A stretch of 33,633 nucleotides of DNA, from NCBI GenBank assembly GCA_900315885.1, contig ONAT01000014.1:1-33633 (forward strand), given 5' to 3'. Below are positions 10,603 to 23,918 of the stretch, piece by piece. The translations under genes were made by a program, and so were the position numbers. Within the stretch, counting starts at the first letter, position 1; each line of letters begins with the position of its first letter. Source of the stretch: an uncultured Erysipelotrichaceae bacterium. Its GTDB lineage: Bacteria; Bacillota_I; Bacilli_A; RFN20; CAG-826. The notes beneath the pieces were generated by a model. It saw only the letters and a list, made by a program, of their open reading frames with translations. It did not search any database and was not told the DNA's origin.

Positions 10603-10611
10603 GTGTTTAGT

Positions 10612-12018
10612 ATGCCAGAATTACCAGAAGTTGAAACTGTTAAAAGAATTTTAACACCTCTATTAGTTAATAAAACTATTGCAAATGTCGAAGTATTATA
10701 TCCTAAAATGATTTTAAGCCCTGTGGAGGAATTTAAAAAATCTCTACAAAATCAAACTTTTTTAAGTATCAAACGCAAAGGCAAATATTTACTTTTCTAT
10801 CTTACTAATGATTTAGTATTAATTTCTCATCTCCGTATGGAAGGCAAATATATTTTATTAGGTAATAATGAAAGTAAGACAAGTCACGCTCGAGTTATCT
10901 TTAATCTAACTAATAATGAAAGTATTGCTTATGATGATACACGTTGCTTTGGAATTATGAAATTAGTTAAAGAAAAAGATTTAAATAATGAAGAAATGCT
11001 TAATAAATTAGGTCAAGAACCTTTTGATATTCATGATATAACTTATATTAAAAAACGTTTACAAAAATCTAATAATCCTATTAAAGTCTCGATTATGGAT
11101 CAAAGTATTATTTCAGGATTAGGAAATATATACGCTGATGAAGTATTATTTAGATCTAAAATCAATCCTCTCACTCCTTCTAGTAAAGTTAATGATGAAG
11201 ATATTCGTAATATTGTTTCTAATTCAGTTATCGTCTTAAATAAGGCAATTGAATTAGGTGGCTCTACTGTTCGTTCTTATCACGCTGCTCGAGGAGTGGA
11301 CGGAAAATTCCAAAACGAATTATTAGTGTATGGTAAAAAAGATGAATGCTGTCCATCTTGTCATTATGTTTTTAAAAAGATTTACGTTGGAAGGCGAGGC
11401 ACAACATTTTGTCCACACTGTCAAAAATATAAATTTAACACTTGTGTTGTCGGTATTGTTGGACAAATTGCTTCAGGCAAGTCTTTAGCGTTAAATTATT
11501 TTAAAAACAAGGGTTACGAAACAATATCTAGTGATGAAATTGTTCATACCTTATATCAAGATATAAATGTAATTAAAAAGCTTAAGATTCATTTTGCTCG
11601 CGCTATAAAAGATGATATTATCGATCGCAAAATCTTAAAAGATATCATTATTAATGACGCAAAAAAGAAAAAGCAACTAGAGGAAATTATTCATCCACTT
11701 GTGGAAGAAACTATCTTTAATTTTATTAAAAACGCTAAAGGACAGATTGTATTTATTGAAGTGCCATTATTATTTGATGCCCATATGGATTATTTATGTG
11801 ATTACATTATTGGTATTGATGCAAGTAAGGAAGATCAAATTGAACACTTAAAGATGCGCGGGGTAAAAGATATTGACTCTTATCTTACTTTAAATAAGAA
11901 TAATGCTTTTGAAGTTAATCGTAATAAAATAAACTTCATGACGAATAAAAACATATCTAAAGACGAATTATTTAAGGAACTCGATATTTTCCTTAACAAT
12001 ATCAAAAGCCACTTGTAG
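10612..12018 (+). CDS. mutM-coaE: Fused formamidopyrimidine-DNA glycosylase and dephospho-CoA kinase (MutM-CoaE)
   Basis: A single 468-residue frame joins two enzymes that are normally neighbours. Residues 1-274 are MutM, which removes 8-oxoguanine and nicks the DNA. It has the catalytic P2 and E3 (MPELPEVETV), K58, the void-filling triad M76/R111/F113 and a zinc finger C247-x2-C250-x16-C267-x2-C270. Residues 279-468 are CoaE, which phosphorylates dephospho-CoA in the last step of CoA synthesis, with the P-loop GQIASGKS at 284-291. Only a few residues separate them and both halves look complete. The ATG at 10612 is required because MutM uses the proline exposed after Met removal; a TAGGTG site just upstream overlaps the polA stop. 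No sign of an internal stop or frame change. Confidence 0.92.
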   Translation: MPELPEVETVKRILTPLLVNKTIANVEVLYPKMILSPVEEFKKSLQNQTFLSIKRKGKYLLFYLTNDLVLISHLRMEGKYILLGNNESKTSHARVIFNLTNNESIAYDDTRCFGIMKLVKEKDLNNEEMLNKLGQEPFDIHDITYIKKRLQKSNNPIKVSIMDQSIISGLGNIYADEVLFRSKINPLTPSSKVNDEDIRNIVSNSVIVLNKAIELGGSTVRSYHAARGVDGKFQNELLVYGKKDECCPSCHYVFKKIYVGRRGTTFCPHCQKYKFNTCVVGIVGQIASGKSLALNYFKNKGYETISSDEIVHTLYQDINVIKKLKIHFARAIKDDIIDRKILKDIIINDAKKKKQLEEIIHPLVEETIFNFIKNAKGQIVFIEVPLLFDAHMDYLCDYIIGIDASKEDQIEHLKMRGVKDIDSYLTLNKNNAFEVNRNKINFMTNKNISKDELFKELDIFLNNIKSHL

Positions 12019-12030
12019 AAGTGGCTTTTT
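12004..12030. terminator. Terminator closing the dnaE operon, shared with the converging aro operon
   Basis: Ten bases AAAAGCCACT (12004-12013) pair with AGTGGCTTTT (12020-12029); the mutM-coaE stop codon lies in the loop. T follows on the plus strand and AAAA precedes, so it can also stop the minus-strand operon that ends at 12032. Confidence 0.8.
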
Positions 12031-12031
12031 A

Positions 12032-13228
12032 CTATTTTTTTCGCTTTAAATGAATGATATCGTAAGGCTTAAATGTCTCATCTGTTTTAATATTAATGAA
12101 ATGTCCTGCGATTGTATAAGTATCATATTCTTCGCCTTTATAAATAATATTTAAAACTTTAAAAGATTTAGGTAAAGAATTAGGAGATAATTTAATATAT
12201 GTTTGACCTTTAATAATTTTATTTTTTAGTTCAAGTGTAACAAGCTTTTTATTTTTATCATATCCTCGAACTATGCCAATAAATTCTCCTGGGTTTTTAA
12301 ACTCATCTAATAGTTCAAATAACTGCTCTTTAATTGTGACATTTCCGTGTAAGAATCCATGTCCAGTCGAACGATTTTCACCATATGCCATAATCTTATA
12401 ATATTCTTTGTAATTCATTTTTTTATGTGCATAATAGTCATCAATGCATTTACGATAACTAGATATAATTGCGCATAAATAGTTATAAGATTTCATTCTT
12501 CCTTCAATTTTTAAAGAAGAGACATTTGCTTCAATTAAATTAGTAATCTCTCTAATTGTGCATAAATCTTTACTCGATATCGCAAAATATTCATCATTTT
12601 TGTTTATCTTTTTATCTTTATCAAAAAGGAAATATTTCCAGCGACATGAATGGGCACATCCACCTCTATTCGCGTCGCGTAAAGTCATGACATTACTTAA
12701 CATACATCTTCCAGAATATGAAGAGCACATCCCTCCATGAATAAATACTTCAATTTCTAATGGTGATTTATTACAAATATCTTTTATTTCTTTTAAAGAG
12801 CATTCTCTTCCTAATACTACACGTGTGACATTATAGTTTTTATAAAACTCAATAGAGGCTAAATTAAGTGTCGATAGTTGCGTTGATATGTGCATTTCGT
12901 TATGAACATATTTATCATTTAATTCCACTAATTCAAGTGATGATGTGATTATTGCGTCAACGTGACACTTTTTAAGTGCTTTTAAATACTTAAGCGCATT
13001 AGTTTTATCTTCATAATGCATAACCATATTACATGTAACATAAACTTTTTTATTTAAAGCATGCGCAAAATCTGTCGCTTTTTTAATATCTTCTAAAGTA
13101 AAATTTGATGCATGCGAACGAAGTGACATCTCTTTTCCCCCGATATATACCGCATCTGCACCATATAAAAGGGCTAATTTGAGCTTATCTAAGTCTCCAG
13201 CTGGAGCTAATAATTCTATTTTTTTCAT
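12032..13228 (-). CDS. U32-family protein, TrhP2 (YrrO/YegQ)-like tRNA uridine hydroxylase candidate
   Basis: 398-residue U32 protein, formerly called peptidase or collagenase. It starts KIELLAPAGD and carries the U32 signature E160-x-F-x2-GG-M-C168-x6-C175-x-LS, followed by C191 and C195 (RGGCAHSCRWKY) and C223. These cysteines are the likely iron-sulfur ligands. In E. coli TrhP and B. subtilis TrhP1/TrhP2 such proteins make 5-hydroxyuridine at tRNA position 34 and need prephenate. It is the last gene of the aro operon and its ATG overlaps the preceding TGA (ATGA), so it is translationally coupled to the aroA-U32 fusion, whose C-terminal domain resembles TrhP1. A C-terminal beta domain (about 310-395) also fits the YegQ/YrrO architecture. 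Substrate assignment is inference; U32 membership is firm. Confidence 0.85.
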   Translation of the reverse strand: MKKIELLAPAGDLDKLKLALLYGADAVYIGGKEMSLRSHASNFTLEDIKKATDFAHALNKKVYVTCNMVMHYEDKTNALKYLKALKKCHVDAIITSSLELVELNDKYVHNEMHISTQLSTLNLASIEFYKNYNVTRVVLGRECSLKEIKDICNKSPLEIEVFIHGGMCSSYSGRCMLSNVMTLRDANRGGCAHSCRWKYFLFDKDKKINKNDEYFAISSKDLCTIREITNLIEANVSSLKIEGRMKSYNYLCAIISSYRKCIDDYYAHKKMNYKEYYKIMAYGENRSTGHGFLHGNVTIKEQLFELLDEFKNPGEFIGIVRGYDKNKKLVTLELKNKIIKGQTYIKLSPNSLPKSFKVLNIIYKGEEYDTYTIAGHFINIKTDETFKPYDIIHLKRKK

Positions 13229-15312
13229 AAGCTCTTCTCCTTATAAATTGAATCTTGATATTTAAATCCATCTTTAATATTTAATGGTAATTTTGTTATT
13301 TCACTTTTGATATTTTTTCCTTCTAAAGCCAAATAAGTAAGTGAAAGAACTTTTTTAAATATATTTTTAGATATGTAATTACTATCAAGAAAAATATATT
13401 TTGCTTCTAATACATAATCAATATTCTCTAAATACGATAACACATATGGTCTAAATATTACTGAGCCGTATTGGTTTTCATTTATATGATAAAAATCATT
13501 ACGTAAATCTTCTTTTAAAAGTAAGTTATCTCTTTTTATAGGTCTAGAGATATATTCTTCATACATCGATAAAACTTTGCGATACGATTGATACATTGGA
13601 ATATAGCCAAATACTGTAACAAAAGCATCACTATTTTTTAAAGTATAATATGTATCTAATAGAGTTATTTCGTTAGAAATACCAATTGACACATTTGCTT
13701 GCATTTTGTAAGCATCTAATTCACCTTTTTGACAAATCAACGTATAAGGATAAAAAATAATTCTTTCTTCGCTTATTATTGACTTTAAAACATTAACTGC
13801 CCCGATATCTTGCACAATGAAGGAAATATTTAACTTCGCTAATTTCTTAACTTCTTTAACAAATTTATTAAGTTCATTTTGATGAATCATAGCGTTTAAT
13901 AATACAAATACATTTTTATTTGTTTGAGCTTTTTTAATTTCGTGATATGTAAAATATTTAGGTGCAAAAAGCGTATATGTTTCATAACCCATCACATAGC
14001 CATACGCATTTATATTTAATTCATCTAAGTCTTTAATTGATATTAAAACTTTCGGTTTTTTACTATATTTAATATCAATGAAGTGTTTTTCTAAAGTCTT
14101 AAGCATATTTAAATCAGATTTATTCATTGAGGTGTAATTAGTAATAATAAATGAAGATTTGTTAAAAGAATTAAGTAAAATAAGCGCATGAACAATACGA
14201 TGATCATTTGGAGCTTCAATAAATGTATCTGAATTTATAACTGATGGATAAACCACTAAAGTTTCTTCATCTAATTCATAACTCACTCCTAACTTATCAA
14301 ATATTTTCAGCATTTCTTTTAAGCGATTAGATTCTTTATATTTTAAACGTGATATATTTCTAAATACTGATTTATCTTTACAAGAAACCGCCAAAGCAAA
14401 AAGGACAGGAGCTAAATCAATATTATTATCAATATCCACAATTATGCTTGATAATCTTGATTTAAATACTTTAATTTCGGTTGGACTTTTTTTGATTTTG
14501 GCACCCGCTACTTCTAAAATATCAATTAATTCTTCGTCACCTTGCAAATGCGAAAATCTTAAATTTTTAAATGTCGTTTCTTTTTTATTAAGCGCTAAAG
14601 CAATTAATAAACTTGCATTTGAATAATCGCCTTCTACAAGATAATGTGTTCCTCTATATGTTGCATTACCAAGTATTTCTTTCGATGATATCTCTACTCC
14701 AAATGCTTGCATAACTCGTATAGTTAACAAAATATAACTTAGAGACGCTTTATTTAAACTAACATTTAGTATCGAATCACAATTTCTTTTCGGCAAAGCT
14801 AAAAGTAAGCCAGAAATAAATTGTGAAGAAATTTCATTAGAAACACTTATTAGCTCATTTTTAAATTCGCCTTTAAGATAATATTTATTTTTAATTAATT
14901 TAAATTCAATATCTTGTTTTTTAAATAAATCCACATAAGTATCCATTGGACGATTTAATAAATCTTCATTTATAGATACATATAATTCTTTATTTGGATA
15001 TAAAACAACAAATAATGGCAAAATAAATCTTAATAATGTCGCACATGATTTGACATTAATGTGAAATATTTCATTTTTGAGCACTTTTCTTTTATTAATT
15101 AATAAAGTATTGCCTTTAATTTTAATATTCCCTCCTAATTTGGTTAAGCAATCAATTGTTGCTAAAACATCTTCAGAATAATTGAAATTTTCAATTGTTG
15201 AAGGTGTATCACTTAAAAAAGCGCAAAATAAAGCACGGATAGTAATACTTTTACTACCCGACACAAATACTTCTTGATAATCTACTTTTTTATTTGATGT
15301 TGCAATATACAT
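13225..15312 (-). CDS. aroA: EPSP synthase fused to a TrhP1-like U32 domain
   Basis: 695 residues in one frame. Residues 1-415 are 5-enolpyruvylshikimate-3-phosphate synthase (shikimate-3-phosphate + PEP to EPSP): SGSKS at 18-22, LNRPMD at 119-124, the likely catalytic D299 (NIDLAPVL), KESNRLKE at 326-333 and DHRIVHAL at 370-377. Residues about 420-695 are a second domain. LLNAMIHQNELNKFVKEV, QDIGAVNVLK and VFGYIPMYQSYRKVL align by eye with the short U32 proteins of the YrrN/TrhP1 type, which also lack the four-cysteine cluster. It starts one base after the aroF stop and overlaps the TrhP2-like gene by 4 bases. EPSP synthases normally end near residue 430. The fused domain's identity is fairly good by motif, not proven. 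Confidence 0.88.
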   Translation of the reverse strand: MYIATSNKKVDYQEVFVSGSKSITIRALFCAFLSDTPSTIENFNYSEDVLATIDCLTKLGGNIKIKGNTLLINKRKVLKNEIFHINVKSCATLLRFILPLFVVLYPNKELYVSINEDLLNRPMDTYVDLFKKQDIEFKLIKNKYYLKGEFKNELISVSNEISSQFISGLLLALPKRNCDSILNVSLNKASLSYILLTIRVMQAFGVEISSKEILGNATYRGTHYLVEGDYSNASLLIALALNKKETTFKNLRFSHLQGDEELIDILEVAGAKIKKSPTEIKVFKSRLSSIIVDIDNNIDLAPVLFALAVSCKDKSVFRNISRLKYKESNRLKEMLKIFDKLGVSYELDEETLVVYPSVINSDTFIEAPNDHRIVHALILLNSFNKSSFIITNYTSMNKSDLNMLKTLEKHFIDIKYSKKPKVLISIKDLDELNINAYGYVMGYETYTLFAPKYFTYHEIKKAQTNKNVFVLLNAMIHQNELNKFVKEVKKLAKLNISFIVQDIGAVNVLKSIISEERIIFYPYTLICQKGELDAYKMQANVSIGISNEITLLDTYYTLKNSDAFVTVFGYIPMYQSYRKVLSMYEEYISRPIKRDNLLLKEDLRNDFYHINENQYGSVIFRPYVLSYLENIDYVLEAKYIFLDSNYISKNIFKKVLSLTYLALEGKNIKSEITKLPLNIKDGFKYQDSIYKEKSL

Positions 15313-15313
15313 A

Positions 15314-16276
15314 TTATTTTACCATTTCTTTAATTGCTTTTAATTGCTTCATTGAGATTGTTTGTTTAGCGTCAGAAATTGCTTTATTAGGCTTAGTACT
15401 TGTCTCAATAATAAAGCCTGATATATCTATTGCATTCGTAGCTTTTATTAAAGATGGAACAATGTTTCTTAAGCCACTTGAATGTGAAGGGTCAATTAAT
15501 ATTGGTAAATGTGTTAAAGATTTTAAAGCCAAAATATCAATTAAATCTAAGGCATTTCTTCCATAACTTAAAGGTGTACGTATTCCTCTTTCCACTAAAA
15601 TGACATTAAGATTACCATTTTTCAAGATATATTCCGCACTCGATAAAAACTCTTCAATTGTGTTATTAAATCCTCGTTTTAAAAGAATTGGTTTATTAAT
15701 TTTTCCTAATGCTTCAAGTAAAGCGTAGTTTTGCATGTTGCGCGCTCCAACTTGAATAACGTCGACATATTCTAAATATAAAGGCAAATAACTTAAATCT
15801 GTTATTTCTGAAACAATCAACATATTTGTATGCTTTTTAACTTCTTTAAGTATTGCAAAACCTTTTTCTCTAACCCCTTGATATGAGTATGGATTGGTTC
15901 GTGGCTTAAAGATACCAGCACGGAACATATCAATACCTATTTTATTTAAATTGTCTACTTCCACTAATGTATCTTTTAAGTTCTTAATGGCGCAAGGTCC
16001 TGCGATAATTACTTTTTTCTTTCCACCGATTGTAACATTATTAACTTTAATAACTGTATCTTCTTGATGATAAGCACGAAGCACTAATTTTAGATTAAAT
16101 TGTGGTCTAATTTCCACGACTAAAGGAGTTATATCTTTCTTAATTTTTATATAATCAATGTCATCAATTTCAATAACATCAATGCCATCAATTTTATGAA
16201 AATCATAAAATATATCTTTCTTTTCTAATATCTCAAATGCTTGACTTTTGCATCTTCTTTTTAATAAAATCTTCAT
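15314..16276 (-). CDS. aroF: 3-deoxy-7-phosphoheptulonate (DAHP) synthase, type I-beta
   Basis: First committed step of the shikimate pathway: PEP + erythrose 4-phosphate to DAHP. The 320 residues comprise an N-terminal ferredoxin-like domain (1-70) and a TIM barrel. The four metal ligands are kept: C95 (AGPCAI), H265 (DPSHSSG), E291 and D302. Also seen are KPRTNPYSYQG at 125-135, GARN at 177-180 and K200-R201. The usual EVH around the glutamate is ETS here, a mild departure. In Thermotoga-type enzymes the N-terminal domain mediates inhibition by tyrosine or phenylalanine. I use the ATG at 16276, preceded by AGGTGA, rather than the GTG at 16285, which would overlap that site. Confidence 0.93.
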   Translation of the reverse strand: MKILLKRRCKSQAFEILEKKDIFYDFHKIDGIDVIEIDDIDYIKIKKDITPLVVEIRPQFNLKLVLRAYHQEDTVIKVNNVTIGGKKKVIIAGPCAIKNLKDTLVEVDNLNKIGIDMFRAGIFKPRTNPYSYQGVREKGFAILKEVKKHTNMLIVSEITDLSYLPLYLEYVDVIQVGARNMQNYALLEALGKINKPILLKRGFNNTIEEFLSSAEYILKNGNLNVILVERGIRTPLSYGRNALDLIDILALKSLTHLPILIDPSHSSGLRNIVPSLIKATNAIDISGFIIETSTKPNKAISDAKQTISMKQLKAIKEMVK

Positions 16277-16277
16277 C

Positions 16278-16712
16278 TTACTCACCTAATCTTTTTTTCA
16301 TTTCTTCGATTGCAACCTTATATCCCTCAAATCCTTTGCCCATAATTACTTTAAAACTCGCTTCTGCGGTTAATAATACTTGACGATATTTTTCGCGTTT
16401 ACTGACATCGGAAAGATGCACTTCAATTGTTGGAAGGTTAACCGCTTTTAAGGCATCTAAAATAGCAATTGAATAATGTGAATAAGCGCCTGGATTAATA
16501 ATAATTCCATCATATTTACCTAAAGCACTTTGAATCATTTCCACAATTTCGCCTTCATAATTTGAACGACAAACGGTAACTTGTACTTTTTCTTTTTCAG
16601 CGACACGCAAAATATAATTAACTAAATCATTATAAGATTTATTTCCATATATCTCGGGTTCACGAACTCCAAGCATATTCAAATTAACGCCATTAACAAT
16701 CAATAGCTTCAT
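16278..16712 (-). CDS. aroQ: 3-dehydroquinate dehydratase, type II
   Basis: Third step of the pathway, dehydroquinate to dehydroshikimate, as a small dodecamer-forming enzyme. Its 144 residues match the family length. Visible active-site residues are R17, E18 and Y22 (REPEIYG), N73 and H79 (INPGAYSHYS), E97 and the catalytic H99 (IEVHLSD), and R110. The usual SNHEG reads SNYEG, a tolerated position. The ATG lies 20 bases inside the end of the aroE-aroK fusion in another frame, typical of the tight coupling in this operon. Confidence 0.95.
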   Translation of the reverse strand: MKLLIVNGVNLNMLGVREPEIYGNKSYNDLVNYILRVAEKEKVQVTVCRSNYEGEIVEMIQSALGKYDGIIINPGAYSHYSIAILDALKAVNLPTIEVHLSDVSKREKYRQVLLTAEASFKVIMGKGFEGYKVAIEEMKKRLGE

Positions 16713-17931
16713 AATACCCCTCCAAAATGTCTTCTAACGTACGATTTATATTTCCTGAGGTCACAACATAATTGCTATATTGTGCATAATACATTTCTCT
16801 CTTTGCAAGCAATTCTTTGTATTTTGTTTTACAAGAACAAAGTGGTCTATTACGCTTAAATTCGATAAGATCTGCATCTCTTTTTATCCATATAACAACA
16901 CCATTTTCTTTTAAGTAATCAATATTGCTTTTATCTAGAATTGCTCCTCCGCCAGTTGCGATAACTACATTTTGTCTAGCGGATAATTCTTTGATAACTT
17001 CATGTTCGATTTTTCTAAAATATTCTTCACCATATTCTTTAAAAATCTTACCAATTTTCATCTTCGTGCGTTTTTCTATTTCTACATCTACATCAATAAA
17101 TTCTTTCTTTAATTTTTTACTAACTAATTGACCAAACATTGTTTTTCCAGCATAAGGCATACCAATTAAAACAACATTTAATTTCCTTTTCATCATTAAA
17201 TAATGTGAATCTTCGACACAAGGATGTCCTCCATCCATAAATAATTCAGCAGCATCTGCGCCTTGTTTAATTAGCATTCTTAATCCTGGTACAGCTTTTA
17301 TACCTTTTTCTTTAGCTTTAACAAGCAATAAAGTGTTTAAAGGATTATAAATTAAGTCAACAACACACTCTAAATCATAAATTGTATCTAAATTTATAAT
17401 TGGAGCGTCATTGTTATTTGGAGTCATACCATATGGAGAGCAATTGATAATCACATTGATGACTTTGTCGTTTACTTCTTCATAAGTGATAGTATTTTCT
17501 TTTTTAGTTCTACTAACTAAGATAATTTTTTTAGCCTTTAGTTCTTTGAGTAGGTATATCGCTGTTTTTGCAACTCCTCCTGTACCTAAAACTGCCACGG
17601 TTTTATTTTCAATTGTGATTTTGTTGCACTTAAGTAAATATTTTAAGCCAGCATAATCGGTGTTATATCCTATTAATAGCCCTCGCTTATTAATAATAGT
17701 GTTCACAGACTGTGTTGCACTTGCAACACTATCAAGTCTATCTAAATAAGGTATAACAAATTCTTTGTAAGGTTTTGTAACATTTATCCCTACAAATTTT
17801 CTACTCTTAAGAAGCTCTACTAATTCTTCTTCATTTAAAGATAATAATTTATAATTATTATTTCTAAATAATTTGTGTAGTTCTTTAGAAAAACTACTTG
17901 TAACATCTTGACCAACTAATCCGTATTTCAT
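16693..17931 (-). CDS. aroE-aroK: Fused shikimate dehydrogenase and shikimate kinase (AroE-AroK)
   Basis: 412 residues carry two successive pathway steps. Residues 1-248 are NADPH-dependent shikimate dehydrogenase: NVTKPYK at 50-56 with the catalytic K56, NTD at 90-92 with D92, and the nucleotide loop GTGGVA at 116-121. Residues 250-412 are shikimate kinase: P-loop GMPYAGKT at 257-264, D280/D282 (DVDVEIEKR), GGG at 327-329 and the lid RNRPLC at 360-365. The P-loop is atypical (usual GFMGSGKT) but keeps GKT. The order dehydrogenase then kinase follows the reaction order, so the product of the first half is the substrate of the second. The start overlaps the aroC stop as ATGA. Confidence 0.94.
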   Translation of the reverse strand: MKYGLVGQDVTSSFSKELHKLFRNNNYKLLSLNEEELVELLKSRKFVGINVTKPYKEFVIPYLDRLDSVASATQSVNTIINKRGLLIGYNTDYAGLKYLLKCNKITIENKTVAVLGTGGVAKTAIYLLKELKAKKIILVSRTKKENTITYEEVNDKVINVIINCSPYGMTPNNNDAPIINLDTIYDLECVVDLIYNPLNTLLLVKAKEKGIKAVPGLRMLIKQGADAAELFMDGGHPCVEDSHYLMMKRKLNVVLIGMPYAGKTMFGQLVSKKLKKEFIDVDVEIEKRTKMKIGKIFKEYGEEYFRKIEHEVIKELSARQNVVIATGGGAILDKSNIDYLKENGVVIWIKRDADLIEFKRNRPLCSCKTKYKELLAKREMYYAQYSNYVVTSGNINRTLEDILEGYYEAIDC

Positions 17932-18911
17932 TTTAAAAATTCCTCTCCGTATTTATTTTTTAAAGCATCGATTAACACTAACGCCACAACGCTATCAACT
18001 ACAACTTGCCCTCTTATTGCAATGCAAGCATCGTGTCGACCATTAATTTGATAATCAATTACTTTTTTAGTTTTTAAATCTAGACATTTTTGCATTTTGC
18101 CAATTGAAGGTGTTGGTTTAAAAATAGTGTTAATTGCAATATCGTCACCATTTGAATAACCTCCGTTAATTCCTCCGCAATTGTTAGATGTAAATGCAAT
18201 TTTATTGTCTTTTAAAGCAAATTCATCATTAACTTTGCTTCCTAAAGATAACTCATAGTCAAAGCCTAAACCAAATGATACTCCTTTAACTCCTGGAATA
18301 GCAAAGATAGCGTTAGCTAAGTTTCCCTCTAATGTATCAAAGAAAGCTCCTCCCACACCAGGAATAAAGTTTTTCACTACTGTTACAACTTTGGCACCAA
18401 GAGAATCATTATTAGACTTTGCTTCTTTAACAAGTTCAAGTGTTTTATCATCAATTTTTGAAATAATCGTGATATTTTTATTTTTTAAAACGCTAATAGC
18501 GATTGCGCCTAACACCACTATTGGAGCGGTTAATCTACCAGAATAATAACCTCCACCTATTCTTTCGCCGTTTTCTTTGTTAACAAGATAATTTGTATAA
18601 TCCCCATGCGACGGTCTAGCAATATCAAGAGGATATTCTTCATCGTTATAATTTTCATTTTTTATTAGAACAGTTAAAGGATTACCATTTGTTTTACCAT
18701 TTTTAACACCACTAATGAACTCATATTCATCGTTTTCAATGCGTGATGTAGTTAAATTGCCTTTTCCTCTTCTTTTTGCTAATTGGCTAGCTATAAAATT
18801 ATGATCAATTTCAATATTTGCAGGTAAGCCATCAATCGTGGCTCCGATATATTTTGCGTGTGATTCACCAAAAAGAGTTACAACTATACTTTTTCCAAAA
18901 CTTGCGCTCAT
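17928..18911 (-). CDS. aroC: Chorismate synthase
   Basis: Last step to chorismate: removes phosphate from EPSP using reduced FMN as a cofactor. The 327 residues make a short form of the family. Motifs include GESHAKYIG near the N-terminus (usually GESHG), RRGKGNLTTSR, RPSHGDYTNY, GGGYYSGRLTAPI (as in clostridial forms) and GRHDACIAIRG near the C-terminus with the conserved R-H-D. The ATG overlaps the aroB stop by four bases and the TGA overlaps the aroE-aroK start by four bases. Confidence 0.95.
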   Translation of the reverse strand: MSASFGKSIVVTLFGESHAKYIGATIDGLPANIEIDHNFIASQLAKRRGKGNLTTSRIENDEYEFISGVKNGKTNGNPLTVLIKNENYNDEEYPLDIARPSHGDYTNYLVNKENGERIGGGYYSGRLTAPIVVLGAIAISVLKNKNITIISKIDDKTLELVKEAKSNNDSLGAKVVTVVKNFIPGVGGAFFDTLEGNLANAIFAIPGVKGVSFGLGFDYELSLGSKVNDEFALKDNKIAFTSNNCGGINGGYSNGDDIAINTIFKPTPSIGKMQKCLDLKTKKVIDYQINGRHDACIAIRGQVVVDSVVALVLIDALKNKYGEEFLK

Positions 18912-19906
18912 TTATTTGTACCCCTTTCGTAAATTTCTTTTAAATCTTCTATTCTTAAATTCAAAAACGAATAATCTTCAATATCGTTTAAATAAGTAAC
19001 ATTAATACCTTGTTCATTAGCTTTTTTATCTAAATTAAGATAACTAACAAGACTTTCAAAAGGCACATTCTTAACAACTGGTATTTGGTATTTGTGCATA
19101 AATGAAAGTATTAAAGGTTTAACTTTTTCATCACTTAAAACTAATGTTCCATTCATAACTGCTTCACCATGAAACAATTCACCTTTACTATTCAGTTCAA
19201 AAGCGTGTCCAAATGTATGGCCAAAATTTAAAACATGACGTAAAGATGTATCGTTTATGTCTTGACGAACAATTTTATTTTTAGCTTTAAGACATTTTTT
19301 AATAAGTAATTCAAGATTAAGCTTATCTTTATTAAAAATATCTAAGATAGATTTATCAAGTGTTAATCCCATCTTAAAAGCTTCACATAAGCCATTATTG
19401 TAATTGCGTTTATCTAAAGTCTTTAAAGTATCAACATCAATAATTACTAAGCTAGGAAAGTAAATTGTGCCTAATTGATTTTTTGCTTCATAGTAATTTA
19501 CTCCTGTTTTTCCTCCAATTGTTGCATCTAACATTGCTAAAGTTGTCGTAGGAATATTAATCCACTTAATGCCACGTTTAAATAATGAAGCAACAAATCC
19601 TGTAATATCAGAAGTTATACCCCCACCAATAGAAACAATTAAATCATCTTTAGTAAAACCAGCCTTAAACAAAAGACTAAGAATTACTAATGGCTTTTCT
19701 AAAGTCTTATTATTTTCATTTGCGTCAATATAATATAAATAACTATTATCATTGAGATATTTTTTAAACCAATTAGAATCTATTTTGCTATCAATAACAA
19801 AAAATATTTTTTTAGTTTTATCAATATAGTTAAAAAGATTTTGTAATGCGCCTTTTTCAATGATAATTTCATATTTAAAAAGATTACCATTTGCCAAAAA
19901 TCTCAT
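18908..19906 (-). CDS. aroB: 3-dehydroquinate synthase
   Basis: Second pathway step, DAHP to dehydroquinate, NAD+ and zinc dependent; 332 residues. NAD binding at GGGITSD (94-100), then PTTTLAMLDATIGGKTGVN at 119-137 and zinc ligands E175 (GLCEAFK), H230 (NFGHTFGH) and H246 (FHGEAV). I use the ATG at 19906, nine bases after AGGAG; the in-frame TTG at 19915 abuts that site and is unlikely. It is the first gene of the seven-gene minus-strand operon and has a good promoter directly upstream. Confidence 0.94.
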   Translation of the reverse strand: MRFLANGNLFKYEIIIEKGALQNLFNYIDKTKKIFFVIDSKIDSNWFKKYLNDNSYLYYIDANENNKTLEKPLVILSLLFKAGFTKDDLIVSIGGGITSDITGFVASLFKRGIKWINIPTTTLAMLDATIGGKTGVNYYEAKNQLGTIYFPSLVIIDVDTLKTLDKRNYNNGLCEAFKMGLTLDKSILDIFNKDKLNLELLIKKCLKAKNKIVRQDINDTSLRHVLNFGHTFGHAFELNSKGELFHGEAVMNGTLVLSDEKVKPLILSFMHKYQIPVVKNVPFESLVSYLNLDKKANEQGINVTYLNDIEDYSFLNLRIEDLKEIYERGTNK

Positions 19907-19939
19907 AACTCTCAACTCCTATAATAATTAATCATAATT

Positions 19940-19968
19940 ATTATAAGATAAAAACTAGTTTACTTCAA
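19940..19968 (-). promoter_or_regulatory. Promoter of the aro operon
   Basis: On the minus strand TTGAAG (19963-19968) and a perfect TATAAT (19940-19945) are 17 bases apart, about 34 bases before the aroB start codon. No attenuator, T-box or leader peptide fits in this short leader, so control by aromatic amino acids at the RNA level is not evident. Confidence 0.65.
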
Positions 19969-19988
19969 TATCGACTAATACAGATAAG

Positions 19989-20017
19989 TTGAGAATGAGG
20001 CTAGTATTTGCTATAAT
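19989..20017 (+). promoter_or_regulatory. Promoter of the chorismate mutase gene
   Basis: TTGAGA (19989-19994), 17 bases, then TATAAT (20012-20017) preceded by TG (TGCTATAAT). This is one of the best sigma-A type promoters in the window. Transcription would begin near 20024, only about ten bases before the ATG and within the AAGGTG site at 20022-20027. Confidence 0.65.
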
Positions 20018-20033
20018 AAGCAAGGTGATAAAG

Positions 20034-20312
20034 ATGGAAAAAGATTTAAATTATTATCGTAATGAACTTGATATTATCGATTTAGAAATGCAAGAATTAT
20101 TCAAAAAGCGCATGCAAATTGTTAAGAAAATTGCAAATTATAAAGCACAAAACAATTTATCTACATATGATAGAACACGTGAAAACACACAATTAGAAAA
20201 TATTGTGCAAAACAAGGATAAAATTGTGTCATCTTATTATCCTGAAGTCTTTAAAAGTATCTTAAAAGTTAGTAAAGATTATCAAAAAGATTTAACTAAT
20301 ACTCTTAAATAA
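20034..20312 (+). CDS. Chorismate mutase, AroQ-fold, stand-alone
   Basis: 92-residue all-helical chorismate mutase converting chorismate to prephenate. The catalytic set known from the E. coli domain is present in order: R9, R26, K37, D46, R49, E50 and Q84. No prephenate dehydratase or dehydrogenase domain is attached, so the product is free prephenate. The ATG at 20034 follows AAGGTG; a TTG at 19989 would lie within the -35 hexamer. It is divergent from the aro operon across 127 bases, and its last 21 bases overlap the 3' end of the opposing large U32 gene. Confidence 0.92.
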   Translation: MEKDLNYYRNELDIIDLEMQELFKKRMQIVKKIANYKAQNNLSTYDRTRENTQLENIVQNKDKIVSSYYPEVFKSILKVSKDYQKDLTNTLK

Positions 20313-22598
20313 TAAACCAAAAGATTCATTGCTAGAAACTGAGATATATGCCTTATTTTCTAGCATTTTTAATGTTTTTTCAAAAGTAACAACATCTAAA
20401 TTTCTTAAGTCAACAATCGAAGGATTTCTGATTTTTTTGTAGCAATTTATTAAGCGATTATTTAATAATTCAAAATAGCAATAATTAATCCTAATTCTTC
20501 TTAAAGAATAATTCTTATTATATTCATCTATATAAGAGATTGAATTATTATATTTACACATTTTGCAATCATTTTTATAAATTGTTTTAATAGGGCAATG
20601 TACATAATTCATTAATGTGTTATAACCTAAAGCGTAATAATATAGATTGGGATTTTCTTTTAAGAATGTTTCGTTACTTTCTAATGAAGCAAAAACATAC
20701 TTAATTCCTAAATGATTTAAAAATGACAAAGCATAATTGTTATTGATATTTAAATTGAATCCTGCGATTAATTGTGATTTATTTATAAACGTTAAAGCAT
20801 ATAAGTTATTTGCAATAAGATATACATCATTTAAGTAATTAACAATTTCATTAATGATTTTTAAATCTTCTTTAAATGCAATAATAGGTAAATTTAAGGC
20901 AACTTTCGCATTTATAAATTTTTCTTTAATTTCTTTTACATGCACAATAACTTCTTTATTAAAATATAAAGGTGAATAAATAATTAATCCTTTGTAGTCA
21001 AAAGGAAGTAAATCCAAATTATTATCTTCATTTATAATAAGTGCATCATCTAATGAATCTAAAGAATAAGTAAAATCTAAATCTTTATTAATAGCAACTG
21101 CATTTCTTTTTTCAAATGTTTCAATAATTGCGTTCTCTAGTAATGTCACTGCGCTTCTTCTTGCTTCATTAAGTGCACTTTTAACGATAAAGACTTGATC
21201 ATCATCAACGCTTAAATCTCTTAACACAAAATTTGTATCATTTAGTTTCTCTACTTGCTTTTTGATATCTTCAAATGTGGTAGGTTGATTGATTGCTTTA
21301 TTGCAGACAAAAGAAGATTTATAAGATATTTCTATTTTTTTATAAACTATTTTAATGAGAAGATTTTCATTTTCTTTCGCTACTACTTTAATATCAACCG
21401 GCAATTTCTTAACTTTATTAATTAATTCTTCTTCTTTTTGATAATCAAGTGTCAAATAAATATCTAAACCCTTTTCTTTAATTTTTTGTTTAGTAAAAAT
21501 CTTATAAGTATTATTTCCTCTTTTAATAATATTACCTACACCTAAACTTGCGATCTCTTTGTTCTTCCACATAAACTTTAAGCCATCGCCGGAATGTAAT
21601 TCGTGACTTGAAACAATTTCTAATTCCAGCAAATCATTTTTAAATGGTTTAACAGATGTTAATGTACCAATCTTAATTCCGATATGATTTTGATTAATCA
21701 GATTCATCATTCCCTCTTTATTATGATTTAAATATGCTTCATAAGAAAAGTCACCACGCGAAAAAGCCACTTTTAAAGCTTCAAGGTCATTTTTTGAAGC
21801 ATCTTTTAAACCATTATCAATGATTTTTCGATATGTTGATATAACTACTCCAACATATCCTTCTCTTTTTAATCTTCCTTCAATTTTAAATGATGTAACG
21901 CCAGCATCAACTAAAGTTTTTAATTTATTAATTAAACAAATGTCTTTAGTTGAAAGATAATACGCTTTGTCTTTTAAAGAATCATTATCTTTTACGATAT
22001 ATTGTTTACGGCAATATTGTTGACATAAGCCGCGATTACCACTATTTAAAGATAAGAAACTTGACATGTAACAATTGCCAGAAAAGCCAACACATAACGC
22101 TCCTTGCACAAAGAATTCTATTTCTAAATTAGTGTTATCTCTTATTTCTTTGATATCTTCTAAAGAAGTTTCACGCGATAAAATTACTCTTTTAAAACCT
22201 AGTTGTTCAACAATTTTTGCTCCTTCAAGGTTATGAATTCCCATTTGTGTGGAAGCGTGTAAAACTATGCCTTTATATCTTTTACTTAATAAATAAGCCA
22301 TACCTAAATCTTGAATTATATAGGCATCTACTTTTGCTTCAATACACTTATCCACCATTTTCAAGAAAGCATCTACTTCTTCGTTTTTAATAATGGTATT
22401 AAATGTAAGGTAAATTTTAACATTAAACAAGTGTGCGTAACGAACAACTTCTCTAATGGAATCTACAGTAAAATTACTTGCCTTGCGGCGAGCATTAAAA
22501 TCCGTTAAACCCAAATATATAGCATTTGCTCCATTATTTATGGCAACTTTTAAGCTTTCAAAATTGCCGGCAGGGGCTAGTAATTCAACTTCCTTCAT
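20292..22598 (-). CDS. Large U32/DUF3656 protein, RlhA-like rRNA cytidine hydroxylase candidate
   Basis: 768-residue U32 protein. The N-terminal TIM barrel starts VELLAPAGNF and carries the signature E161-x-F-x2-G-A-L-C169-x6-C176, then C192, C196 (GLCQQYC) and C221, the likely iron-sulfur ligands. Residues about 395-510 match DUF3656, including SALNEARRSAVTLLENAI. The C-terminal part holds a second cysteine set C668, C678, C681 and C707 typical of the long clostridial members. U32 plus DUF3656 is the architecture of E. coli RlhA, which hydroxylates 23S rRNA C2501 and depends on prephenate and iron-sulfur assembly. It converges on the prephenate-forming mutase with overlapping 3' ends. Function is inferred; a peptidase role was the older annotation and has little support. 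Confidence 0.85.
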   Translation of the reverse strand: MKEVELLAPAGNFESLKVAINNGANAIYLGLTDFNARRKASNFTVDSIREVVRYAHLFNVKIYLTFNTIIKNEEVDAFLKMVDKCIEAKVDAYIIQDLGMAYLLSKRYKGIVLHASTQMGIHNLEGAKIVEQLGFKRVILSRETSLEDIKEIRDNTNLEIEFFVQGALCVGFSGNCYMSSFLSLNSGNRGLCQQYCRKQYIVKDNDSLKDKAYYLSTKDICLINKLKTLVDAGVTSFKIEGRLKREGYVGVVISTYRKIIDNGLKDASKNDLEALKVAFSRGDFSYEAYLNHNKEGMMNLINQNHIGIKIGTLTSVKPFKNDLLELEIVSSHELHSGDGLKFMWKNKEIASLGVGNIIKRGNNTYKIFTKQKIKEKGLDIYLTLDYQKEEELINKVKKLPVDIKVVAKENENLLIKIVYKKIEISYKSSFVCNKAINQPTTFEDIKKQVEKLNDTNFVLRDLSVDDDQVFIVKSALNEARRSAVTLLENAIIETFEKRNAVAINKDLDFTYSLDSLDDALIINEDNNLDLLPFDYKGLIIYSPLYFNKEVIVHVKEIKEKFINAKVALNLPIIAFKEDLKIINEIVNYLNDVYLIANNLYALTFINKSQLIAGFNLNINNNYALSFLNHLGIKYVFASLESNETFLKENPNLYYYALGYNTLMNYVHCPIKTIYKNDCKMCKYNNSISYIDEYNKNYSLRRIRINYCYFELLNNRLINCYKKIRNPSIVDLRNLDVVTFEKTLKMLENKAYISVSSNESFGLLFKSIS

Positions 22599-22721: not shown

Positions 22722-23918
22722 ATGAAAAAAATTAAATTTATTTTTCCAGCAATGCTCGCTATGATTCTCGCAGGTTGCAATGGAAACAACAAAAACGCAA
22801 ACAACAATGAAAATGGTAATCAACTAGCCAAAAACGCTTTAATGGAGAATATCGCTGTCGATACTTTATCTTCCGCCGAATTGTTAGATACTCTTGAAGA
22901 AATCTCTGAAGTAACTGACACTACTACTGACGGAAATGAAGAGACACCTACACCAGATATTCCTAGCGAGGGAGAAACAGAAACTCCTGATGAGAATTTA
23001 ACAATTGTAAACAAATATATTCAATTGTTTGAAACGATGACTTCAGAAGATGGATTAGTAATTAATCTCTATGAAAGCGATAGAGAAGATTATAAATACC
23101 TTTTAACTATCAATGCTTCCTTATTAGGCAAAGAAAAACAAGAATTCAAGCTTTATTACAATGAAGTAATTAAAGACATTGATAATGAAGAAACTCCTGA
23201 TGTCGATGGTGAAGAAACAGGCGATACTATAACTGATGAAAAAGAAACTACAGAAGAAGCACCTGAACCAACCATTAAGGAAAAGAAACATCATCACAAA
23301 TTCAAATTTGTTGAATTAGAAGGAATTCTTATTAAAGATGAACAAGAAATCGCTGTCAAAGGAGAAACATTTGTCGATGATGAAGAAACAAAAACTTCTT
23401 TCAAAGCTGAATTAGAAGATGGAAAAGTAGTTAAAATCAAATCTAAGATTTCTAGTGAAGAAAAATCATACGAATACGAATTAAAAGAAAAACATCGCAC
23501 TATTGCTAAAAACAAATTAAAGATTGAAAAAGACGAGGAAGATGGCGAAACGAAACTAAAATTAGAAATCAAAAATAGTGAAGAGAACATCAAATACGAA
23601 ATCAAAAAGATTGTCAAAGACGAACAAGAAATCTACAAGATTCACTACAAAAACAATGCAGAAAAAGGTTATTACATCGCTTATGTTTCTAAAGATGAAG
23701 AAGGTAATACTGTCGTAACTTATGAAACAAAAGATGGAGGAAAACACCACCACGGAGATTATGGCTGGGGATGTGGAGATCATGGACACCATCACGGACA
23801 CGATTTTGAATGGGACTGGGATCAAGATGATGATTTCGATTATGGTGAATTAGATAAAGAATTCGGACAAACTCCTGATGAAATTGATGATATTCTCCAA
23901 AAATTACTTGAAGAATAA
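22722..23918 (+). CDS. Acidic, histidine-rich lipoprotein, probably truncated by an in-frame stop
   Basis: 398-residue lipoprotein of unknown function. The signal sequence ends in LAGC with C19, and AGAGGAG lies eight bases before the ATG. The mature protein is Asn- and Glu-rich, with Thr/Pro/Glu linkers (about 60-95 and 155-185), a Lys/Glu-rich repetitive beta-like region (about 190-330) resembling extended lipoprotein repeats, a histidine cluster (EKKHHHK near 190) and a Gly/His/Trp/Asp-rich tail from about residue 340 (KHHHGDYGWGCGDHGHHHGH). The His/Asp tail suggests metal binding at the cell surface. The frame stays open for 74 more codons after the TAA, with the same composition, so this reading frame is likely the front part of a longer gene. 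Confidence 0.7.
   Translation: MKKIKFIFPAMLAMILAGCNGNNKNANNNENGNQLAKNALMENIAVDTLSSAELLDTLEEISEVTDTTTDGNEETPTPDIPSEGETETPDENLTIVNKYIQLFETMTSEDGLVINLYESDREDYKYLLTINASLLGKEKQEFKLYYNEVIKDIDNEETPDVDGEETGDTITDEKETTEEAPEPTIKEKKHHHKFKFVELEGILIKDEQEIAVKGETFVDDEETKTSFKAELEDGKVVKIKSKISSEEKSYEYELKEKHRTIAKNKLKIEKDEEDGETKLKLEIKNSEENIKYEIKKIVKDEQEIYKIHYKNNAEKGYYIAYVSKDEEGNTVVTYETKDGGKHHHGDYGWGCGDHGHHHGHDFEWDWDQDDDFDYGELDKEFGQTPDEIDDILQKLLEE

Follow-up and report, generated by a model that had tools for sequence, protein, structure and literature searches.

The window analysed here is a 33,633-nucleotide stretch of DNA from an uncultured Erysipelotrichaceae bacterium of gut type (assembly GCA_900315885.1, contig ONAT01000014.1), which forms contig 26 of a 1.32 Mb genome that is 97% complete. 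A single locus of this window (positions 12032-22598) encodes all seven activities of the chorismate pathway, from DAHP synthase to chorismate synthase, a stand-alone chorismate mutase (CM) and three proteins of the U32 family (PF01136), the only U32 genes found in the genome. We propose, with a probability of roughly 0.78, that this locus is dedicated to supplying prephenate to anaerobic RNA hydroxylation, and that relatives lacking the pathway take up chorismate (or prephenate) to the same end. The operon aroB-aroC-aroEK-aroQ-DAHP synthase-aroA::trhP2-trhP1 and the divergent CM gene would make prephenate. This prephenate would allow TrhP1, together with the TrhP2 domain attached to AroA, to produce ho5U34 in tRNA, and would serve the adjoining RlhA-like protein in forming ho5C2501 in 23S rRNA. 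In the relatives, a DASS/SLC13-like transporter would import chorismate (or prephenate), and CM would isomerise chorismate to prephenate for the U32 enzymes.

TrhP and RlhA are known to be prephenate-dependent, and prephenate in the medium has a rescuing effect (PMC6599085). Prephenate has been proposed as the oxygen source for U32 oxidases (PMC11574389), and loss of aroB or aroC in Pseudomonas affects tRNA (PMC12300143). In the open-access literature searched, neither a dedicated aro-U32 locus nor an AroA-U32 fusion nor a chorismate importer had been described.

Organisation and conservation of the locus

The operon occupies minus-strand positions 19915 to 12032, in the order aroB, aroC, aroE-aroK, aroQ, the DAHP synthase gene, aroA::U32 and the gene of a 398-residue U32 protein, and most of its adjacent genes overlap by a few bases. 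Its first gene encodes 3-dehydroquinate synthase (AroB, 18908-19915; PF01761, PF24621 and TIGR01357 at 265.8 bits, below the cut-off of 305), with the start probably at the ATG at 19906. It is followed by a short form of chorismate synthase (AroC, 17928-18911; TIGR00033 at 302.8 bits, over cut-off), a shikimate dehydrogenase-shikimate kinase fusion (AroE-AroK, 16693-17931; PF08501/PF01488 and PF01202), a type II 3-dehydroquinate dehydratase (AroQ, 16278-16712; PF01220 at 172 bits, NF003805 over cut-off) and a DAHP synthase of the KDO8P-like type (AroF/AroG, 15314-16285; TIGR01361 at 303 bits, over cut-off). The last two genes are aroA::U32 (13225-15312) and that of the 398-residue protein (12032-13228; PF01136 and PF16325). 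On the plus strand, divergent from aroB, lies the gene of the AroQ-class CM (20034-20312; PF01817 at 64.5 bits), convergent with a minus-strand gene for a 768-residue RlhA-like protein (20292-22598; PF01136 with PF12392, DUF3656). Profile matches thus recover every pathway enzyme, the stand-alone CM and the three U32 proteins where the first-pass annotation had placed them. Its picture of two facing units does not hold, since the rlhA-like gene and the aro-trhP operon both lie on the minus strand and only CM is on the plus strand.

For the U32 proteins, a tree was built in which E. coli TrhP, RlhA, UbiU and UbiV and Bacillus-type proteins served as references. The 398-residue protein falls in the starred 99/99 clade with the long Bacillus-type YrrO proteins, the AroA-fused domain groups with the short YrrN type, and the 768-residue protein groups with E. 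coli RlhA (support 100/98). In B. subtilis, yrrO encodes TrhP1 and yrrN TrhP2, and both are required (Sakai 2019, PMC6599085). The U32 pair announced by the first-pass annotation is therefore real, but its two labels have to be exchanged, the fused domain being the TrhP2-like member. The 398-residue protein keeps E162/C170/C177/C193/C197 of E. coli TrhP, with the motif CX6CX15CX3C, and is a probable tRNA U34 hydroxylase subunit with a [4Fe-4S] motif. The label of an E. coli-type TrhP (YegQ) was considered for it and rejected, as it scores 267 bits against the NCBIfam TrhP equivalog, whose cut-off is 534. The RlhA-like protein keeps the Glu and four Cys of U32 oxidases and is probably the 23S rRNA C2501 hydroxylase.

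The fused protein consists of EPSP synthase (AroA, about residues 1-425; PF00275 at 197 bits and TIGR01356 at 240 bits, below the cut-off of 287) and a TrhP2/YrrN-like domain (about residues 429-695), encoded just upstream of the TrhP1-like gene with a 4-base overlap. This domain has no Fe-S cysteine ligands, a trait it shares with the order's other YrrN-type proteins. It can nevertheless be assigned as a U32 domain because it aligns with the TrhP1 profile at an hhalign probability of 99.9% and is modelled alone by AlphaFold with a pLDDT of 92.7. The model of the whole AroA-U32 fusion, built from four sequences, was poor (pLDDT 62.5), and a PDB fold search gave weak barrel-type matches, none at E <= 0.001. 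A free-standing TrhP2 protein of about 280-310 residues was rejected as a candidate, since in the window as in the three congeners the domain is part of the AroA polypeptide. The C-terminal part of the fusion is accordingly described as a TrhP2-like domain and not as a TrhP2 protein. The fusion is a natural candidate for substrate channelling.

The AroA::TrhP2 fusion and an identical gene order are present in all four genomes of the genus, all reading frames of the locus are intact in these four, and the ratio of nonsynonymous to synonymous substitution rates (dN/dS), from a comparison of two congeneric genomes, is 0.06-0.20 for each locus gene. The locus is conserved in the genus under purifying selection, and the shared order and fusion together with these dN/dS values indicate that the arrangement is not due to chance. 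The active-site residues of EPSP synthase are kept except N94, and the CM retains each of the 8 active-site positions of E. coli PheA-CM that were checked. These observations bear on the idea that the aro genes are what is left of a decaying Phe/Tyr operon and lie by chance beside U32 genes. Such a decay would fit with the fuller operons of relatives, which carry CM-PheA and TyrA, and with the many members of the order that have lost everything. It is however already disfavoured, and we regard it as very improbable, given the intact frames, the low dN/dS, the conserved active sites and the repeated loss of PheA/TyrA in lineages that retained aro or CM.

The aro-U32 operon layout is rare among the loci retrieved, though U32 proteins are common. 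When an alignment of TrhP1 was used as query, aro genes lay alongside in just two lineages among the nearest 80 named-genome loci retrieved, namely that of the window and that of G012, and the full-length AroA-U32 fusion used as query against genome contigs gave no match. G012, from another genus, repeats the gene order of the window but has aroA, yrrN and yrrO as separate neighbours, and its rlhA-CM-aroB segment lies on a second contig; it may show a possible precursor of the fusion. In the aro gene tree G012 is not the nearest neighbour of the window clade, and their common layout may be ancestral, transferred or convergent. Other fusions occur in the order: that of aroE with aroK is found in aro operons beyond the window genus (L082, L077, L086, L095 and others), and in G143 a CM domain and aroB share one 457-residue frame (L093:9357), a possible CM-AroB fusion.

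Fate of chorismate and co-occurrence of chorismate mutase with U32

Profile searches of the window genome found no match to PF00800 (prephenate dehydratase, PDT) or PF02153 (prephenate dehydrogenase, PDH). The survey was extended to 279 genomes of the order, mostly metagenome-assembled genomes and mostly fragmented assemblies, and PF00425 (trpE/pabB/menF/entC) was found in none of them, the same search being positive in 14/14 controls. The window genome has none of trpE, pheA and tyrA, and its locus does not qualify as an aromatic amino acid operon. The absence of terminal-branch genes, which the first-pass annotation had noted for the window, thus extends to the whole genome for these three families, and no Trp, Phe, Tyr or folate branch appeared elsewhere.

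A substantial AroC is present in 37 genomes, and 34 of them have U32. The three others (G049, G061 and G103), the only relatives with aro genes and no U32, all have an aro operon that includes CM-PheA and TyrA and thereby have another use for chorismate. All 12 AroC-positive genomes with neither PDT nor PDH, which belong to six genera, have U32. Five more genomes with AroC and U32 lack a PDT match; TyrA is in the operon of G082, G097, G143 and G234, and in G081 the contig ends first. Barring transfer, the aro gene tree implies several independent losses of PheA/TyrA with retention of aro, CM and U32. The suggestion of the first-pass annotation, that the shikimate pathway is kept mainly to supply prephenate for RNA hydroxylation, gains support from both sets of results, which answer the two refuting conditions that this annotation had set and which the suggestion survives. 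In seven AroC-negative genomes (G112, G117, G118, G140, G271, G079 and G080), weak PDT-domain matches fall in frames of 570-613 residues, an odd PDT-like fusion.

One could argue that Phe and/or Tyr are still made, either by a non-homologous or very divergent PDT or PDH or by slow chemical breakdown of prephenate to phenylpyruvate followed by a general aminotransferase, and that the linkage to U32 is incidental operon shuffling. Indeed, prephenate is chemically labile, and the four genomes that keep TyrA with no detected PheA show that partial branches exist in the order. We nonetheless consider this unlikely. Besides the missing PDT and PDH matches, the window locus contains no aminotransferase, whereas the apparently PheA-type operon of G100 has one just before CM. 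Neither the window nor the tested loci of relatives contained a T-box, and the existence of the AroA::TrhP2 fusion also speaks against incidental shuffling. Furthermore, AroC-negative relatives retain CM alongside U32 and a transporter, a combination that amino-acid synthesis does not account for.

The proposed role in RNA hydroxylation is consistent with the distribution of CM and U32. Both are present in 59 of the 279 genomes, CM only in 4, U32 only in 10 and neither in 206. At the level of genera the corresponding numbers are 17, 2, 6 and 31 (Fisher p 1.3e-7). The genomes with CM only are the three that carry PheA and TyrA, plus G170, where a CM fragment lies at a contig end. Presence varies inside genera g17, g22 and g24, and CM and U32 mostly vary together. 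CM is accompanied by AroC or the transporter in 61/63 genomes, and in the remaining two (G100 and G170) it lies at a contig end.

A transporter-CM cassette in relatives without the pathway

Most AroC-negative relatives with U32 carry a typical cassette composed of a 410-residue U32 gene, a 480-residue DASS-like transporter and a stand-alone CM, arranged as a short operon that in several cases is divergent from an rlhA-like gene. G104 and G110 differ in that only an rlhA-like gene accompanies the transporter-CM pair, in divergent orientation. The transporter occurs in 25/279 genomes, all AroC-negative and U32-positive, and is never found with chorismate synthase. It adjoins a U32 or rlhA-like gene in 17/17 loci read, and CM is present in 24/25 transporter genomes, the exception being G159, whose contig ends inside the transporter gene. 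This cassette is new here and carries the earlier idea over to organisms that have no chorismate synthase.

The transporter scores 67.7-78.8 bits against PF00939, whose gathering cut-off is 27, and is also over the cut-off of PF03600. By sequence it has one solved relative, the NadC-family transporter of PDB 5uld (phmmer E 4e-11). Cassette CMs keep all active-site residues even though no AroC is present, except for a decayed second copy in G028 (L129:6490-7424; R11 to C, Q88 to H), which lies near a C-terminal fragment of the transporter and marks a partial tandem duplication of the cassette. In G194, a stop lies within the CM frame. Chorismate and prephenate are dicarboxylates; hence the simplest reading is that imported chorismate is converted by CM to the prephenate that the U32 enzyme would use. 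A DASS-type importer of chorismate or prephenate was not found in the open-access literature searched.

Several points weigh against a dedicated supply of prephenate for RNA hydroxylation. The proposal as a whole is built on sequence evidence, and the proposed substrate of the transporter is a guess from gene context. The transporter can be called only DASS-like, as it scores 115.4 against a cut-off of 198.6 for TIGR00785, the NCBIfam DASS model, and one transporter genome, G171, has a PDT match at a contig end. Kinship inflates the genome-level p-values of the co-occurrence. In addition, nine genomes (G034, G041, G043, G046, G048, G053, G186, G187 and G224) have U32 but no AroC, CM or DASS match; they may rely on another donor or another route of prephenate import, or reflect assembly gaps. 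The tenth CM-less U32 genome is G159, cut by the contig end. In two of the nine, small repeat proteins of the beta-flower type (PF21785/PF21786-like) adjoin the 410-residue U32 gene (L139:8212-8550 in G041 and L142:11133-11474 in G224). Finally, no other fate of chorismate was detected in the window genome, in a search whose families did not include mqnA, ubiC, cmoA, bacA, non-homologous dehydratases or trmR/trhO.

This last point leaves some room for another product, such as menaquinone by the futalosine route, Cx-SAM/cmo5U via CmoA or a further metabolite, U32 being then one of several users. On the other hand, PF00425 is absent from the entire survey, the DASS-CM cassettes adjoin U32 or rlhA-like genes, and the use of CmoA would itself count as RNA modification, so that we hold this alternative to be quite improbable. 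Our preferred explanation remains the supply of prephenate for RNA hydroxylation. On balance, we lean towards the broader view that many lineages of the order use chorismate and prephenate chiefly, perhaps solely, for this purpose, and rely either on the full pathway with the fusion or on a dedicated importer and CM replacing it. If true, wobble or ribosomal hydroxylation would be worth at least eight enzyme activities to a genome-reduced lineage. This bears on the open question of what U32 oxidases do with prephenate (PMC11574389), and a bacterial importer of chorismate or prephenate is predicted from the DASS-CM cassette.

Flanking features and comparison with known systems

A divergent promoter-like pair (19940-20017, both strands) lies between aroB and CM. 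These are consensus matches only: the one directed toward aroB (minus strand, 19968-19940) matches at 10/12 positions and the one directed toward CM (plus strand, 19989-20017) at 11/12, with an extended -10. Since the latter, strong match covers 19989-20017, CM probably starts at the ATG at 20034 and not at the TTG at 19989. A bidirectional terminator-like hairpin (12004-12029) closes the aro-trhP operon. No T-box, riboswitch or other Rfam element was found in the window, and control by a T-box or riboswitch was rejected, as none was present in the window or in the tested relatives' loci. Inspection of the translation by eye suggests that, downstream of the operon, a 471-residue frame adjoining polA (10603-12018) fuses MutM (formamidopyrimidine-DNA glycosylase) to CoaE (dephospho-CoA kinase). 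On the other side, and divergent from rlhA, lies the gene of a putative lipoprotein of 398 residues (22722-23918), acidic and rich in His, Asp and Glu, with a signal-like start and the lipobox-like AGCNG, which possibly binds metal.

The TrhP1-like protein resembles B. subtilis TrhP1 (YrrO) and E. coli TrhP (PMC6599085) in its CX6CX15CX3C motif and catalytic Glu, and the cysteine-poor TrhP2-like partner encoded next to it resembles the B. subtilis pair, a system that needs prephenate. In contrast to B. subtilis, TrhP2 is here joined to EPSP synthase in one polypeptide, and the trhP genes belong to a complete aro operon. A trmR-like gene was absent from the window and from the scanned stretches of relatives, which is a further difference from the B. 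subtilis and E. coli systems; methyltransferase-like genes adjoin yrrN in two loci and reached no family cut-off among those shown. The known TrhP organisms share prephenate with Phe/Tyr synthesis, whereas no such branch was detected in the window genome. The third U32 protein has the U32 and DUF3656 domains, the Glu and four Cys and the 100/98 clustering expected from E. coli RlhA (23S rRNA ho5C2501 synthase), but its gene is convergent with CM and lies beside an aro operon. Classical aro operons of the same order contain the same enzymes, relatives having aroB-aroC-aroEK-aroQ-aroA-tyrA next to CM-pheA; the window differs from them in having no pheA, tyrA, trpE or pabB, in its stand-alone CM and in an operon that ends in U32 genes. 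Likewise, the relatives' transporter shares PF00939/PF03600 and the similarity to PDB 5uld with DASS/SLC13 divalent-anion transporters, yet it falls below the TIGR00785 cut-off, sits with CM and U32 and is confined in the order to AroC-negative U32 genomes.

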